From Planctomycetota bacterium (GTDB lineage: Bacteria > Planctomycetota > Phycisphaerae > Phycisphaerales > UBA1924): a stretch of 64,000 bases of DNA. The stretch covers positions 62,001-126,000 of the forward strand of contig JACTNA010000009.1 in assembly GCA_014584315.1 (NCBI GenBank). Direction: 5' to 3'. Position 1 is the first letter of the stretch; the number at the start of each line of letters is the position of its first letter. Of this stretch, positions 49,784 to 54,510 are shown one piece after another. The notes under the pieces were generated by a model that ran no database searches, was not told where the DNA came from, and saw only the letters and a list, made by a program, of their open reading frames with translations. The position numbers and the translations under genes are program-made.

Positions 49784-49850
49784 CACTCCGTCACTCCGTC
49801 ACTCCGTCACTCCGTCACTCCGTCACTCCGTCACTCCGTCACTCCGTCAC
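49784..49850. repeat. Octamer tandem array at the rhomboid stop codon, cactccgt x 8
   Basis: Eight perfect units of cactccgt (TGACGGAG on the minus strand) followed by cac. The TGA at 49847-49849 is the stop codon of the rhomboid gene and the array extends from it downstream. Confidence 0.97.
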
Positions 49851-50998
49851 CCCAGTTCATCCATCAGTTCCCGCGCCAGCGTGCGTTCTTCGTCGCGGGC
49901 GAGCGCGCCGTCAAGCCCGTCGAGGAACGTTCGCGCCGCCACCGGATCGTTGAGATACCGCGCGTTGATCAGCGCGAGCATGAGCCGCACCGTCGGGGCC
50001 TCGGCGTCGTTGGGGAAGCCGCCCAGGAACCGCTCGTAGGCGATGGCGGCCGTCGCGTGGTCGCCCGCGGCGAAGAGGTGGTTGGCAACGTCGTACTGCG
50101 TGCGCCGCGTCAGCGTCACCGCCGACGGCTTGTCGCCGAACTCGCGCAGCAGGTCGCGGTACGCCGACGCCGCCCCCGCCATGTCCCCCGACGACGCCGC
50201 GGTCGAGACCCGCGCCCGCGCCGCCGCCGCCGGGTCGGGCGGCGCATCGGCCGCGGCTCGCGCCCGTCGCTCCGCCTGCTCGCGTTCGCGCCGACGCTCG
50301 TGCTCCACCTCGCGGAACTGCCGACGCCGCGCCGCCTGCCGACCGATCGTGAACAGGTCGTACGGCTCGCGCTGGATGGCCCTCGTCCACAGCAACCCAA
50401 CGCTCAGCAGGATCCCGAACCCGTACCCCGCGAGGTGCGCCTCGTACGCCACCCGGCTCGCGCCACCCGACCGCAGCAACGGCACGAAGTCCCAGAAGAT
50501 CGCGAACGCGATGAACCACCACGCCGGGATCATGAACACCCCGATGAAGAACAGCACGATCAGCGTCCGCACGTGCGTCCTCGGGAACAGCACGAGGTAC
50601 GCACCCGTCACCGCCGAGATCGCCCCCGACGCCCCCACCACCGGCGCGGGCGACGCCGCCACGTGCCCAAGCCCCGCCGCCGCCGCCGCAACCAGGTAGA
50701 ACGCCGTGAACCCGATGCGCCCGATCCGGTCCTCCACGTTCGGCCCGAAGACCCACAGGAAGAGCAGGTTCCCCAGCAGGTGAACCGGCCCCGCGTGCAG
50801 GAACGCGTACGTCACCCACGACCACGCCCCGGAGCCGCGCGACAGGTGCAGCGTCCCCATCACACGCTCGTGCGTTTCGGGCGATCCCGCACCCAGCAGC
50901 ACCATCCCGATGAACACCAGCGCATTGGCCGAGATCAGCGCGTGCGTCACCAGCGTCGGCCGGCGTCGGGGGCGGTCTGTGCCAAGCGGAAGGAACAC
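49847..50998 (-). CDS. Rhomboid-family intramembrane serine protease with soluble C-terminal domain
   Basis: A 383-residue protein. Six membrane helices (about 17-215) form a rhomboid core: GPVHLLGNLLFLWVFG in the second helix region holds the conserved His/Asn pair, APVVGASGAISAVTGAY carries the nucleophile Ser124 (GxSG), and ASRVAYEAHLAGYGFG the catalytic His188. These complete a Ser-His dyad, so the enzyme should cleave membrane-spanning proteins. The C-terminal third (about 225-383) is charged and helical with TPR-like pairs (AGAASAYRDLLREFGDKPSA), probably cytoplasmic. Its stop codon is the first TGA of the octamer array. Confidence 0.93.
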   Translation of the reverse strand: MFLPLGTDRPRRRPTLVTHALISANALVFIGMVLLGAGSPETHERVMGTLHLSRGSGAWSWVTYAFLHAGPVHLLGNLLFLWVFGPNVEDRIGRIGFTAFYLVAAAAAGLGHVAASPAPVVGASGAISAVTGAYLVLFPRTHVRTLIVLFFIGVFMIPAWWFIAFAIFWDFVPLLRSGGASRVAYEAHLAGYGFGILLSVGLLWTRAIQREPYDLFTIGRQAARRRQFREVEHERRREREQAERRARAAADAPPDPAAAARARVSTAASSGDMAGAASAYRDLLREFGDKPSAVTLTRRTQYDVANHLFAAGDHATAAIAYERFLGGFPNDAEAPTVRLMLALINARYLNDPVAARTFLDGLDGALARDEERTLARELMDELG

Positions 50999-51134: not shown

Positions 51135-52265
51135 ATGACGGAGTTCGCCAAGGGCCTGGAGGGAGTGATCGCGGCCGAGTCGAAGATGTCCTTCATCGAC
51201 GGCCAGAAGGGCGTCCTCGAATACGTCGGCATCCCCATCGGGGAACTCTCCGGCAAGTCAACCTTCGAGGAAACCGTCTTCCTCCTCTGGAACTTCCGCC
51301 TCCCCAAGCGCGCCGAACTCGACGAGTTCGGCCGTCGCCTCCGCGCCTGCTACACCCTCCCCGACGGCTTCGAGCAGCGCATCCTCTCCACCCCCAAGAC
51401 CGCCCAGCCCATGCACGCCCTGCGCTCGCTCGTCAGCGCGCTCTCCCTGCACGACCCCAACCCAAACGCCAACGACGTGGACTCCGCCCGCGACAAGTCG
51501 CTCAAGATCCTCGGCCAGGCCCCCACCATCGTCGCCTACTTCGACCGCCACCGCCGCGGACTGCCCCTCGTCCACCCGGACCCCTCACTCCCCTTCGCCG
51601 ACAACTTCCTTTACATGCTCAACGGCGAGAAACCAACCCCGACCATGGCCCGCGCCTTCGACGTCTGCATGATCCTCCACGCCGACCACGGCTTCAACAA
51701 CTCGACCTTCACCGCGCGCGTCATCATCTCCACGCTCAGCGACGTCTACTCCGCCCTCACCGGCGCGATCGGCTCCCTCCGCGGCCCGCTCCACGGCGGC
51801 GCGAACGAGGGCGTCATGCACATGCTCAACGAGATCCCCTCCCTCGACGCCGTCGAGCCATACATCATGGGCAAGATCGAGCGCAAGGAGAAGATCATGG
51901 GCTTCGGCCACCGGGTCTACAAGGCCAAGGACCCCCGCGCCACCGACCTCCAGAAACTCGCCAGGCAACTCGCCGAGGACACCGGCAACACCGACCTCTA
52001 CGCCAAGAGCCAGCGCATCGAGGAGATCATGGCCCGCGAACTCGCCGCCAAGGGCATCTACCCCAACGTCGACTTCTACTCCGCCACCACCTACCACTGC
52101 ATCGGCCTCAAACTCGACCTCTTCACCCCCATGTTCGCCCTCTCCCGCCTCGCCGGATGGAGCGGCCACATCCTCGAACAACTCGCCGACAACCGCCTCT
52201 TCCGCCCCAAAGCCCTCTACGTCGGCCCACACGACGCCCCCTACGTGCCGATCGAAAAGCGGTGA
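51135..52265 (+). CDS. gltA: Citrate synthase
   Basis: A 376-residue enzyme that condenses oxaloacetate and acetyl-CoA to start the TCA cycle. Length and sequence are those of the short, Gram-positive/archaeal-type form. Catalytic residues are visible in LHADHGFNNSTFTARVI, GPLHGGANEGVMHML (catalytic His), MGFGHRVYK and VDFYSATTYHCIGL (catalytic Asp). The N-terminus (MTEFAKGLEGVIAAESKMSF) is complete; the ATG at 51135 has GGGAG eight to twelve bases ahead. A TATAGT -10-like hexamer lies at 51061. The methylcitrate synthase alternative cannot be excluded, but no propionate genes are nearby. Confidence 0.93.
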   Translation: MTEFAKGLEGVIAAESKMSFIDGQKGVLEYVGIPIGELSGKSTFEETVFLLWNFRLPKRAELDEFGRRLRACYTLPDGFEQRILSTPKTAQPMHALRSLVSALSLHDPNPNANDVDSARDKSLKILGQAPTIVAYFDRHRRGLPLVHPDPSLPFADNFLYMLNGEKPTPTMARAFDVCMILHADHGFNNSTFTARVIISTLSDVYSALTGAIGSLRGPLHGGANEGVMHMLNEIPSLDAVEPYIMGKIERKEKIMGFGHRVYKAKDPRATDLQKLARQLAEDTGNTDLYAKSQRIEEIMARELAAKGIYPNVDFYSATTYHCIGLKLDLFTPMFALSRLAGWSGHILEQLADNRLFRPKALYVGPHDAPYVPIEKR

Positions 52266-52290
52266 CGGGGGTGCTGGCGGTCGGGATCGG

Positions 52291-52313
52291 GTGGCGGTGG
52301 CGGTGGCGGTGGC
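52291..52313. repeat. Hexamer GTGGCG tandem repeat
   Basis: Almost four copies of gtggcg, 25 bases after the citrate synthase stop and at the left border of the lower-GC island. Confidence 0.85.
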
Positions 52314-52450
52314 ACGGCTTGAGATTCTCAGGGCCACCCTACCCCCGGCGAGATTTTTGACGAGTTCTCCGCCGGTGGCGGCGTCAGCGACCGGACGCTA
52401 CGGCTAATCGACAAGCACGCAACGGTCTTGTTCACGCACGACTCTAGTGG

Positions 52451-52648
52451 TTACTTGCCCCGCTTGTGCGACTGTCGCGGACGCTTCCCGCCGAGAACGG
52501 CTGCACGGTGACCGAAGTCACTGGCGAGACCAGTGCCAATGGCAGGAGCATCGGTAAGGCGCTTTTTCGACCACGCGTGGAGTGCCGGGAACATCGACCG
52601 CTCAACCTCGGCAGCGGTCTGGAACACTTGTGGCTTGGTCTTTCTCAT
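52451..52648 (-). CDS. Small basic protein co-translated with the proteasome-like gene
   Basis: A 65-residue, strongly basic protein. MRKTKPQVFQTAAEVERSMF begins a helical part; the C-terminus RPRQSHKRGK is Arg/Lys-rich. AGGAG precedes the ATG at 52648 by about six bases, and the start overlaps the stop of the proteasome-like gene by four bases (ATGA). The basic tail could bind nucleic acid or a partner protein. I do not recognise the family. Tight coupling to the upstream gene is the only clue to its role. Confidence 0.68.
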   Translation of the reverse strand: MRKTKPQVFQTAAEVERSMFPALHAWSKKRLTDAPAIGTGLASDFGHRAAVLGGKRPRQSHKRGK

Positions 52649-53943
52649 GGCAGCTCCTGATTGTACCGCATGAAGAACTGTCGGTTCAACTCCGCTGGGA
52701 AATAGTGTTTTCGCTTGACCCACACCAAGCCGTCACCCTTGGAGATCAGGGCCACGTCAATGGGCCCACCTACAGTTTCCGCCTGAGTCGATACACGCCG
52801 CTTGAATGACGTGATGTTCACCATGGCCTCAGCCATTGCGGCGAGTTGGTCCTTGGGAGTACCAGCGAGAACGTGGAGAATCGGATGCGAATACTCTTGC
52901 TGCCGGAACTCCTTCAGCTTCTTGGTGTATTCGTCGTACTCCTTCCGCAAGCGATCCGCAACTGCCTGCCTTGCCCGCTTTTTCTCGTTCGCCGCAGGCC
53001 CCTTCACCTCGTCGAGGATGATGTCGGTGGCCCTGTCCAGGATAACTTCGAAATCCTGATTCAGTCGCCTCTGGTAGTCGGGATGAACGCCGTCCAAGAA
53101 GCTCTGAACTTCATCGGTTTGCGCGAACGGCACAATCACTCCGTACTGCATCTTTTCCATTGTGAACTCGTGCAGCTGCCGCCACTGCAAAACACCGGCC
53201 AGTCTGCCACGAACCTCCATGCTCGTGAGCGCAGGGACGATCTCTTCGGTACCAAACCCAGCGATAACCACCCCACTATCTGAAGTTCGCCCAAGATTCG
53301 CATGTCGGGTAAAGATCGCTTCGCCAAGGTATTGTAGTGCTCTGTGATCGGCTTGCGAGAGGTCCACATTCGAAAAGAGTGAGTCGATGATCCGTTCTAC
53401 ACGATTCTTCAGCTCCGCACGGACACGCGGCAAGTTGGTTTTTGTGATTCCCGGCATTACCTTGCCGCGCTTCCATTCGTCCACATGCTTCTCGATCTGA
53501 GCGTGGAGTATTTCGGTGACCTGCTCCTTTGTGATTTCTTTGTGTTCTTCAATGAACTCGTCGACAAGTTCCTTCACTTCGTCTTGTATGTGCATGAAAT
53601 AGCCGGCTACGCACTGATACACGTAATCGTCAGTCGCATTCCCAACAATCAGGTCGTCCGAGTCTGCGAGGGCCTTGCGGAACCAGTCGGCGTAATCGGT
53701 TAGCCTTTGAAACGAGGTGTTACCCAGACGCTGACGCAGGACTTTGACGATGGTCTCCCATGGCACGCTCATGAAGTCCGCGCCGCCGTAGACCATGATA
53801 CCGACAGGCTCATGTTTCGACAGCGCGAATATCTTGTTCGCCGTAGGGAATATCTTCTCTCGATTTCCTAGACGCATCGTCACTGCACTGTCGGCGGCCA
53901 TGGCGACGGCTGAGCGATTGAGTATGGCGATCTCTGCAGTCAT
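52645..53943 (-). CDS. Proteasome-like Ntn-hydrolase, uncharacterised
   Basis: A 432-residue protein. The first 60 residues resemble proteasome beta and HslV subunits: after Met1 comes Thr2, then IAILNRSAVAMAADSAVT with an Asp at position 17 counted from Thr2, and TANKIFAL with a Lys at position 36, then VGIMVYGGADFMS in place of the Gly-rich turn. This fits an N-terminal threonine nucleophile (Thr1, Asp17, Lys33 in proteasomes). A second patch, SGVVIAGFGTEEIVPAL, resembles the later proteasome strands. A helical insert of about 120 residues (about 90-215) and a charged C-terminal part (EYDEYTKKLKEFRQQE) make it longer than proteasome subunits. Its GC content is far lower than its neighbours. 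Removal of Met1 is inferred. Confidence 0.72.
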   Translation of the reverse strand: MTAEIAILNRSAVAMAADSAVTMRLGNREKIFPTANKIFALSKHEPVGIMVYGGADFMSVPWETIVKVLRQRLGNTSFQRLTDYADWFRKALADSDDLIVGNATDDYVYQCVAGYFMHIQDEVKELVDEFIEEHKEITKEQVTEILHAQIEKHVDEWKRGKVMPGITKTNLPRVRAELKNRVERIIDSLFSNVDLSQADHRALQYLGEAIFTRHANLGRTSDSGVVIAGFGTEEIVPALTSMEVRGRLAGVLQWRQLHEFTMEKMQYGVIVPFAQTDEVQSFLDGVHPDYQRRLNQDFEVILDRATDIILDEVKGPAANEKKRARQAVADRLRKEYDEYTKKLKEFRQQEYSHPILHVLAGTPKDQLAAMAEAMVNITSFKRRVSTQAETVGGPIDVALISKGDGLVWVKRKHYFPAELNRQFFMRYNQELP

Positions 53944-54069
53944 GGCACGATTGTACTGCTATTTGAATCGTCGTGTAGTGAGTGCAGGGGCTGCCGCCCG
54001 CGCAATCCCGCCGGAAGAAGAAGCCGGAGGCGGCTGTGGATACTCACGCCGCAAGTACCGACGCCCAGC

Positions 54070-54437
54070 TTTGCATCCGCCGCACGAGCGTCCCCCTCGC
54101 CCTCCCGCGGCACCGCCTCGTATCGCTGCGTCGAACTCTCCTGCCCAAGCGAAAAGCACGCCCGCCGCTCCGATCGACTCAGTTCGCCCGCACGTACGTC
54201 ACGATGCACCTCCGCCGTGCGGGCACTGTAGCTTTCCCACGTCGTCGTCCGCTTCCTTCAGGATCAAGATATCGGTCACCTGCTTCTTCAGCCGCGCGTT
54301 CTCCAACACAGCACCCACAGCCACCTGGTCTCCTCCGTCTTCATCTCCCGTACTGGTTCCACCAGCGGTTGACGATTTGCTCGATCACCCCAGGCACCTG
54401 CACGACTTGGCCGGTACTCCGTCTGGCTGTCTTCAAA
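54070..54437 (-). mobile_element. Remnant of an IS3-family insertion sequence (OrfA/OrfB)
   Basis: The minus strand holds scrambled pieces of an IS3-type transposase in different frames. EQIVNRWWNQYGR is followed after one frameshift by MKTEETRW and after another by LENARLKKQVTDILILKEA (54199-54324), together matching the OrfA end (EQTFNRWRNQYGGMKTEE...ENARLKKLVAD...LKE). Then SERRACFSLGQESSTQRYEA and REGEGDA (54074-54210) match the OrfB start (SERRACRVLGQ..STQRY). There is no intact reading frame and no clear terminal repeat. It abuts the 3' end of tRNA-Ala. Confidence 0.65.
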
Positions 54438-54510
54438 TGGAGCGGATGGGAGTCGAACCCACGACCTCATCATTGCGAACGATGCGCTCTACCAACTGAG
54501 CTACCGCCCC
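54438..54510 (-). tRNA. tRNA-Ala (anticodon CGC)
   Basis: 73 nt on the minus strand. The acceptor stem is GGGGCGG with CCGCTCC, giving the G3-U70 pair that marks alanine tRNAs. D-arm AGCTCAGTTGGTAGAGC, anticodon loop TTCGCAA (anticodon CGC, reading GCG) and T-arm GGGTTCGACTCCC are normal. CCA is not encoded. The 3' end borders the lower-GC island. Confidence 0.97.

Follow-up and report, generated by a model that had tools for sequence, protein, structure and literature searches.

Fuchs, Alva and Lupas (2021) described 22 new proteasome homologues and reported no genomic context suggesting a function for any of them (PMC8665760). One of these, PMI-4 (proteasome homolog with multiple insertions 4), comprises hundreds of members, spread over many phyla (Proteobacteria, Firmicutes, Actinobacteria, Bacteroidetes, PVC, Cyanobacteria and Euryarchaeota) and phages, and shares with PMI-3 a layout in which the third and fourth insertion sites, after helices H1/H2 and between H3 and H4, are occupied (PMC8665760). 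Here I analyse a PMI-4-like gene from a 64,000-nucleotide stretch, hereafter the window, of a Planctomycetota contig (JACTNA010000009.1). The gene (52645–53943, minus strand) encodes a protein of 432 residues and is followed by a small gene (52451–52648, minus strand, ATG start) for a basic protein of 65 residues. The two genes form a mobile module, which is horizontally acquired and behaves as cargo. Compared regions are designated below by locus (L) and genome (G) labels, G000 being the host genome.

An earlier note on this DNA had proposed that the 432-residue protein is a proteasome-like N-terminal nucleophile (Ntn) hydrolase, and had suggested structure prediction as a check. The AlphaFold2 model obtained from 99 sequences does display the proteasome beta fold, with a predicted local distance difference test score (pLDDT) of 92.9 and a predicted template modelling score of 0.89. 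When the model was compared with the PDB using Foldseek, the top matches were 20S proteasome beta subunits and Anbu, with an expectation value (E) of 1e-4 to 20S. VIA-align superimposed it on 20S beta with a Z score of 18.3 (185 residues, root-mean-square deviation 3.3), placing model residue 2 on Thr1, and on Anbu with a Z score of 17.7. The predicted structure therefore confirms the assignment of the protein to the proteasome-family Ntn hydrolases, with their alpha-beta-beta-alpha fold. The claim rests on the model, because a profile of the 99 relatives run against PDB sequences matched 20S beta, at the end of the protein, only at E ~0.05; the insert matched cullin helices. A PDB sequence search with the single 432-residue protein as query returned nothing relevant.

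In the model, the catalytic sheet (residues 1–60) is followed by H1 (62–73) and H2 (81–93), then by an insert of four helices spanning residues ~103–212 (helices 103–134, 139–158, 171–189 and 197–212), strands (223–274) and H3 (276–284). Residues 288–360 (helices 288–312 and 318–360) form a second insert that separates H3 from H4 (364–384), which is followed by strands 395–410 and a C-terminal helix limited to residues 421–429. This insert layout is that of both PMI-3 and PMI-4, and the distribution over phyla, Euryarchaeota and phages reported below points to PMI-4. The window protein, compared with PMI-4 by its published description, is filed as PMI-4-like on these two grounds; it also has the beta-like core, equivalents of Thr1, Asp17 and Lys33, and no propeptide. 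It thus fits a family already described, without a function, and known among phage proteins as phrog_5990.

The same features set the protein apart from the better-known members of the superfamily. With 20S beta subunits it shares the fold, the Thr nucleophile, the Asp and Lys residues and the oxyanion glycine region, but it is about twice as long, has no propeptide and carries two long helical inserts; moreover, in contrast to the 20S proteasome, neither alpha subunits nor an AAA+ ATPase are encoded beside the window gene. Anbu likewise combines a proteasome-like fold with the absence of a propeptide. However, Anbu has a long C-terminal H5 coiled coil, whereas the window protein has the pore-loop and H3–H4 inserts instead and is co-encoded with a tiny basic protein. 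HslV (ClpQ), which shows the same Ntn threonine peptidase fold, is a protein of ~175 residues that works with HslU; the window protein has 432 residues, no HslU and no sequence match to HslV. The view that it is neither HslV nor Anbu is borne out by the lack of a PF00227 match and by the two inserts, which together amount to ~200 residues. Finally, connectase lacks H1 and H2 and bears a two-helix insert between S3 and S4. The window protein is the opposite on both counts, H1 and H2 being present in the model and the S3–S4 connection short.

The active-site residues were read from the open reading frame (ORF) as the earlier note had read them. Thr immediately follows Met1 (codons 53938–53943, minus strand), and the Asp and Lys at positions 17 and 36 counted from that Thr are Asp18 (53890–53892, minus strand) and Lys37 (53833–53835, minus strand), the equivalents of proteasome Asp17 and Lys33; the YGGADF turn is also found. 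A single-sequence scan of genome contigs detected no relative of the 432-residue protein, but an alignment-based scan did: a profile built from 18 relatives and run over GTDB species contigs and viral contigs matched 488 and 190 encoding stretches, respectively, and the same catalytic residues recur in relatives from hundreds of genomes and viral contigs. Conservation of the three residues, on which the earlier note had let its assignment stand or fall, is 99% for Thr2, 99% for Asp18 and 100% for Lys37 among 178 aligned relatives. The Met-Thr start is present in 179 of 182 loci, the remaining three being partial or broken at that end, and no start other than the codon preceding Thr is possible in 101 of 130 testable groups. 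The exactness of this start, together with its being so often the only one available, indicates that there is no propeptide and that the predicted nucleophile becomes N-terminal upon removal of Met1. Methionine aminopeptidase normally removes a Met in front of Thr. Two RefSeq entries from E. coli place the start ahead of the conserved MTAE, by 33 codons in WP_231531568.1 (L203:12786-14189) and by 32 in WP_048239513.1 (L205:8789-10189). Their annotated starts are probably wrong, since the Thr nucleophile would be buried in the chain.

The protein has no accepted match in Pfam, NCBIfam or PADLOC. Weak Pfam matches to PIN_8 and Nucleolin_bd fell within the helical inserts of one member only and were taken as chance. 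By contrast, the PHROGs profile phrog_5990 matches the window protein over its full length (1–427 of 427, E 7e-115) and also matches the E. coli, Streptococcus and Providencia copies. This profile is a phage protein cluster without annotation, and the small partner is not part of it.

The small gene overlaps the enzyme gene by four bases, as already pointed out in the earlier note: the stop and start codons share the sequence ATGA (52645–52648, minus strand), which suggests that translation of the enzyme and of its partner is coupled. The survey of homologous neighbourhoods proposed in that note revealed a conserved downstream family. In the relatives, an ORF of 45–75 codons nearly always begins no more than a few dozen bases from the enzyme stop codon, often overlapping it. 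A hidden Markov model (HMM) was built from 16 of these small ORFs, leaving out the window protein, and searched against all loci, translated into 43,661 six-frame segments. All 54 matches with E<0.01 directly followed the enzyme gene, and the 65-residue window protein was itself recovered with an E value of 0.0011. A Pseudomonadota locus that had been kept out of all HMM building (L225) matched the refined HMM at E 3e-5. The family has the core S-x3-[FY/V]-x3-[YF]-[FL]-P-x ... G-x2-LA, and a homologous ORF of ~60 codons stands directly 3' of the enzyme gene in bacteria and archaea alike. In phages and satellites a small ORF occupies the same place, too divergent for the partner HMM to detect. 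The ratio of non-synonymous to synonymous substitution rates (dN/dS) in close pairs is 0.04–0.14 for the enzyme gene, which is under purifying selection in the relatives, and 0.06–0.19 for the small ORF, phage-type ones included; both are therefore real genes. Since both genes are under purifying selection in the relatives and hundreds of relatives share the catalytic residues, the observation is more than chance. The two genes were never found fused, and a few copies (L014, L012 and L112) have no detectable small ORF. When the stop codon was read through at an in-frame locus, the resulting tethered AlphaFold2 model predicted the small protein, at low confidence, to be a helical hairpin. The phage-type partners (e.g. 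L176, L103, L202) have little sequence in common with the chromosomal family; an aromatic-x-Pro or FF motif (FNPSK, FFNIP, KDFF / EYFPKS) recurs in both and may point to a short binding motif that the two groups share.

The distribution of the gene is that of a mobile element's cargo. Thirteen of 50,697 phage records carry it, among them seven Streptococcus satellite phages, two Streptococcus prophages and phages of Providencia, Stenotrophomonas and Porphyromonas. In the Streptococcus satellites inspected, the gene is near the element end (last but one in two of them), and in Javan468 the integrase is at the opposite end. In Javan85 the gene is the last one, after the lysis genes; it lies between a Dam-like methylase and a holin in the Providencia phage, and among head and tail genes in the Porphyromonas phage. 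The gene turned up in 22 of 5,426 complete E. coli genomes. The four regions inspected are all lambdoid prophages, in which it takes one of two kinds of position: flanked by a DNA methylase and Q, on the opposite strand, or right after a helix-turn-helix (HTH) repressor, a location like that of lambda rexAB; in several viral contigs it likewise follows an XRE repressor. Ten plasmids carry the gene. It is sparse among relatives of the host, occurring in 1 of 100 genomes of the window's taxonomic family (it is absent from two members of the host's genus), in 6 of 294 genomes of the phylum and, for comparison, in 10 of 398 Pseudomonadota. Archaea and Bacteria do not separate but interleave on a tree of 77 sequences, which requires 10 changes between them. 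While the paper describing PMI-4 gave neither context nor partner, the gene can now be associated with a conserved downstream small gene and with cargo positions. Broken copies were encountered in R. leguminosarum TpK (frameshift, L021:8001-9220) and in a Methanosarcinales metagenome-assembled genome (in-frame stop, L041:3657-4943), as expected of dispensable cargo.

The window itself provides a direct view of such a cargo site. The pair lies, as the earlier note had it, between citrate synthase, whose ORF ends at 52265, and a tRNA-Ala gene (CGC, 54438–54510, minus strand), and a short IS3-family OrfA-like remnant (ENARLKKQVTD..., 54199–54324, minus strand) sits between the pair and the tRNA; it matches a named IS3 transposase (58% identity over 24 residues to ISSisp1, E 1.7e-4). 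The low GC content remarked upon in the note also holds, at 54% for the large gene and 61% for the small one against 70% for the window. Compared with a genome of the same genus, G299, synteny is lost at 52263, where citrate synthase ends, and regained at 54435, at the 3' end of the tRNA-Ala, which delimits a variable slot (52264–54434). In G299 this slot (L198:4830-6019) contains a gene for a DUF433 protein followed by one for a PIN_10 protein, which together look like a toxin-antitoxin pair of the VapBC type. As the contents of the two slots differ, related genomes hold different cargo in one tRNA-flanked slot. The claim of a mobile two-gene module is well supported by the satellites, prophages and plasmids, by this slot and by the conserved partner. 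A second attachment site, sought as a duplicated tRNA 3' end, was not found in the window. In the host genome PF00227 detected neither a proteasome nor HslV (the controls worked), so that the PMI-4-like gene encodes its sole recognised proteasome-type protein. The interval between citrate synthase and tRNA-Ala appears in its own right as a tRNA-flanked hotspot with exchangeable toxin-antitoxin-like cargo. Upstream of citrate synthase, around 49810–49860, a short tandem repeat with SVTPSLRH-like units lies within a long spurious ORF.

What might such a module do? From the genomic context I infer a role in phage competition or defence, the module being a mobile threonine Ntn-peptidase that is held or aimed by its small partner; I consider this proposal about evenly poised between right and wrong. 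Methionine aminopeptidase would expose Thr2, which would attack an amide bond as the N-terminal nucleophile, the enzyme most likely being a peptidase. The long helical inserts, one on the pore-loop face and the other separating H3 from H4, would set substrate or assembly, replacing an AAA+ unfoldase, and the small helical protein, produced by coupled translation, would bind the enzyme so as to restrain, assemble or aim it. Upon infection by a competing phage, the module would cut a host or viral protein, to the benefit of the carrier. The broader proposal, that a proteasome-family threonine hydrolase gated by a partner of ~60 residues without an ATPase is an effector of immunity or inter-element competition common to bacteria, archaea, prophages and satellites, is put forward only tentatively, as more likely wrong than right. 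Satellites and prophages are known to serve as reservoirs of anti-phage systems (PMC9122126). That paper deals with hotspots of antiviral systems in general, and the words protease and proteasome are absent from its text. Around the chromosomal copies, 96 neighbouring genes within 5 kb, drawn from the genome loci L023–L102, were compared with 96 ORFs picked at random in 20 of those genomes. The neighbours matched 147 PADLOC models, a number inflated by redundant models, and the controls 9; the matches among the neighbours include Type IIG and Type I/II restriction-modification genes, an Avs1a-like protein, Fic and PDC candidates. This excess is suggestive, real in kind and inflated in number. 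Genomic context favours a defence role, which the earlier note had raised as a possibility. Several observations weigh against the proposal as a whole. At least 25 of the 147 models are contributed by one kinase-domain neighbour, many chromosomal copies adjoin ordinary metabolism genes, and Fuchs et al. saw no context suggestive of function (PMC8665760). The best match of the 432-residue protein in PADLOC-DB 2.0.0 was no better than E 0.08, and no anti-phage activity is known for the enzyme. As to peptidase activity, connectase demonstrates that a proteasome-like fold can also ligate (PMC8665760). Lastly, the pLDDT of the small protein in the tethered model is 55–76, with no evidence of docking. 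A literature search for a proteasome-like anti-phage protein gave nothing relevant, and no report of the pair or its role was found in a search that mostly left out subscription papers and preprints.

Other explanations must be weighed against phage competition or defence. The organisation as a two-gene operon with a very small, basic second product is reminiscent of a toxin-antitoxin or addiction module, in which the enzyme would be toxic alone, the small protein would neutralise it, and the main effect would be to stabilise the plasmid, satellite or island. The presence of the gene on plasmids and satellites, its residence in the slot that holds the VapBC-like pair in the sister genome, and a RelBE pair slightly further along in Javan421 are consistent with this explanation, which overlaps with the defence proposal. 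However, the small gene always comes second, while most toxin-antitoxin pairs put the small antitoxin gene first, and a few copies are devoid of a detectable small ORF; I regard this alternative as unlikely. An equally unlikely one is that the enzyme is a general peptidase for turnover or processing of host proteins, spread by transfer and without any special anti-phage role. Its occurrence in very many bacterial and archaeal phyla, often beside housekeeping genes, and the lack of any other PF00227-detectable proteasome or HslV in the host would be in keeping with such a function. The strongly patchy distribution noted above in the host's family and in Pseudomonadota would not, nor would carriage by satellites of 8–14 kb and at repressor-adjacent prophage positions, nor the mixing of domains on the tree.

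An enzyme of the phage life cycle, serving the prophage or satellite that carries it as, e.g., a maturation protease or a switch that cleaves a repressor, is more improbable still. The Porphyromonas phage copy amid head and tail genes and the copies that adjoin HTH repressors or Q could be so explained. Conversely, the gene is found in just 13 phage records, at positions unrelated between phages, and many chromosomal and plasmid copies have no surrounding phage genes. Finally, the enzyme could belong to a bacterial ubiquitin-like conjugation system and remove or process the conjugates, since on three Rhizobium plasmids and one Mesorhizobium plasmid the gene adjoins genes for a Multi_ubiq-E2 protein, a ThiF-JAB protein and DUF6527 (L014:4733-9437, L015:5274-11751, L016:8001-14210 and L021:8001-14203), with a ClpP-like gene nearby as well in Rhizobium. 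Yet no such cluster was found at ten further Pseudomonadota loci or at any other locus examined, and in Rhizobium a separate three-gene block stands between the gene and the cluster. A shared island location explains the arrangement equally well, so that I give a functional link a very small chance. The same plasmids also carry regulator-linked small gene pairs, with a RES domain in Mesorhizobium and a 205-residue protein in Rhizobium.

PMI-4, apparently the commonest of the 22 homologues, is now endowed with a conserved tiny partner gene and with cargo sites. The enzyme and its partner constitute a concrete two-protein system, for which phage competition or defence is a testable hypothesis. 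Should this hypothesis be wrong, the partner would still be a handle on the function of the enzyme; should it hold, prokaryotic immunity would count the proteasome fold among its protease folds.
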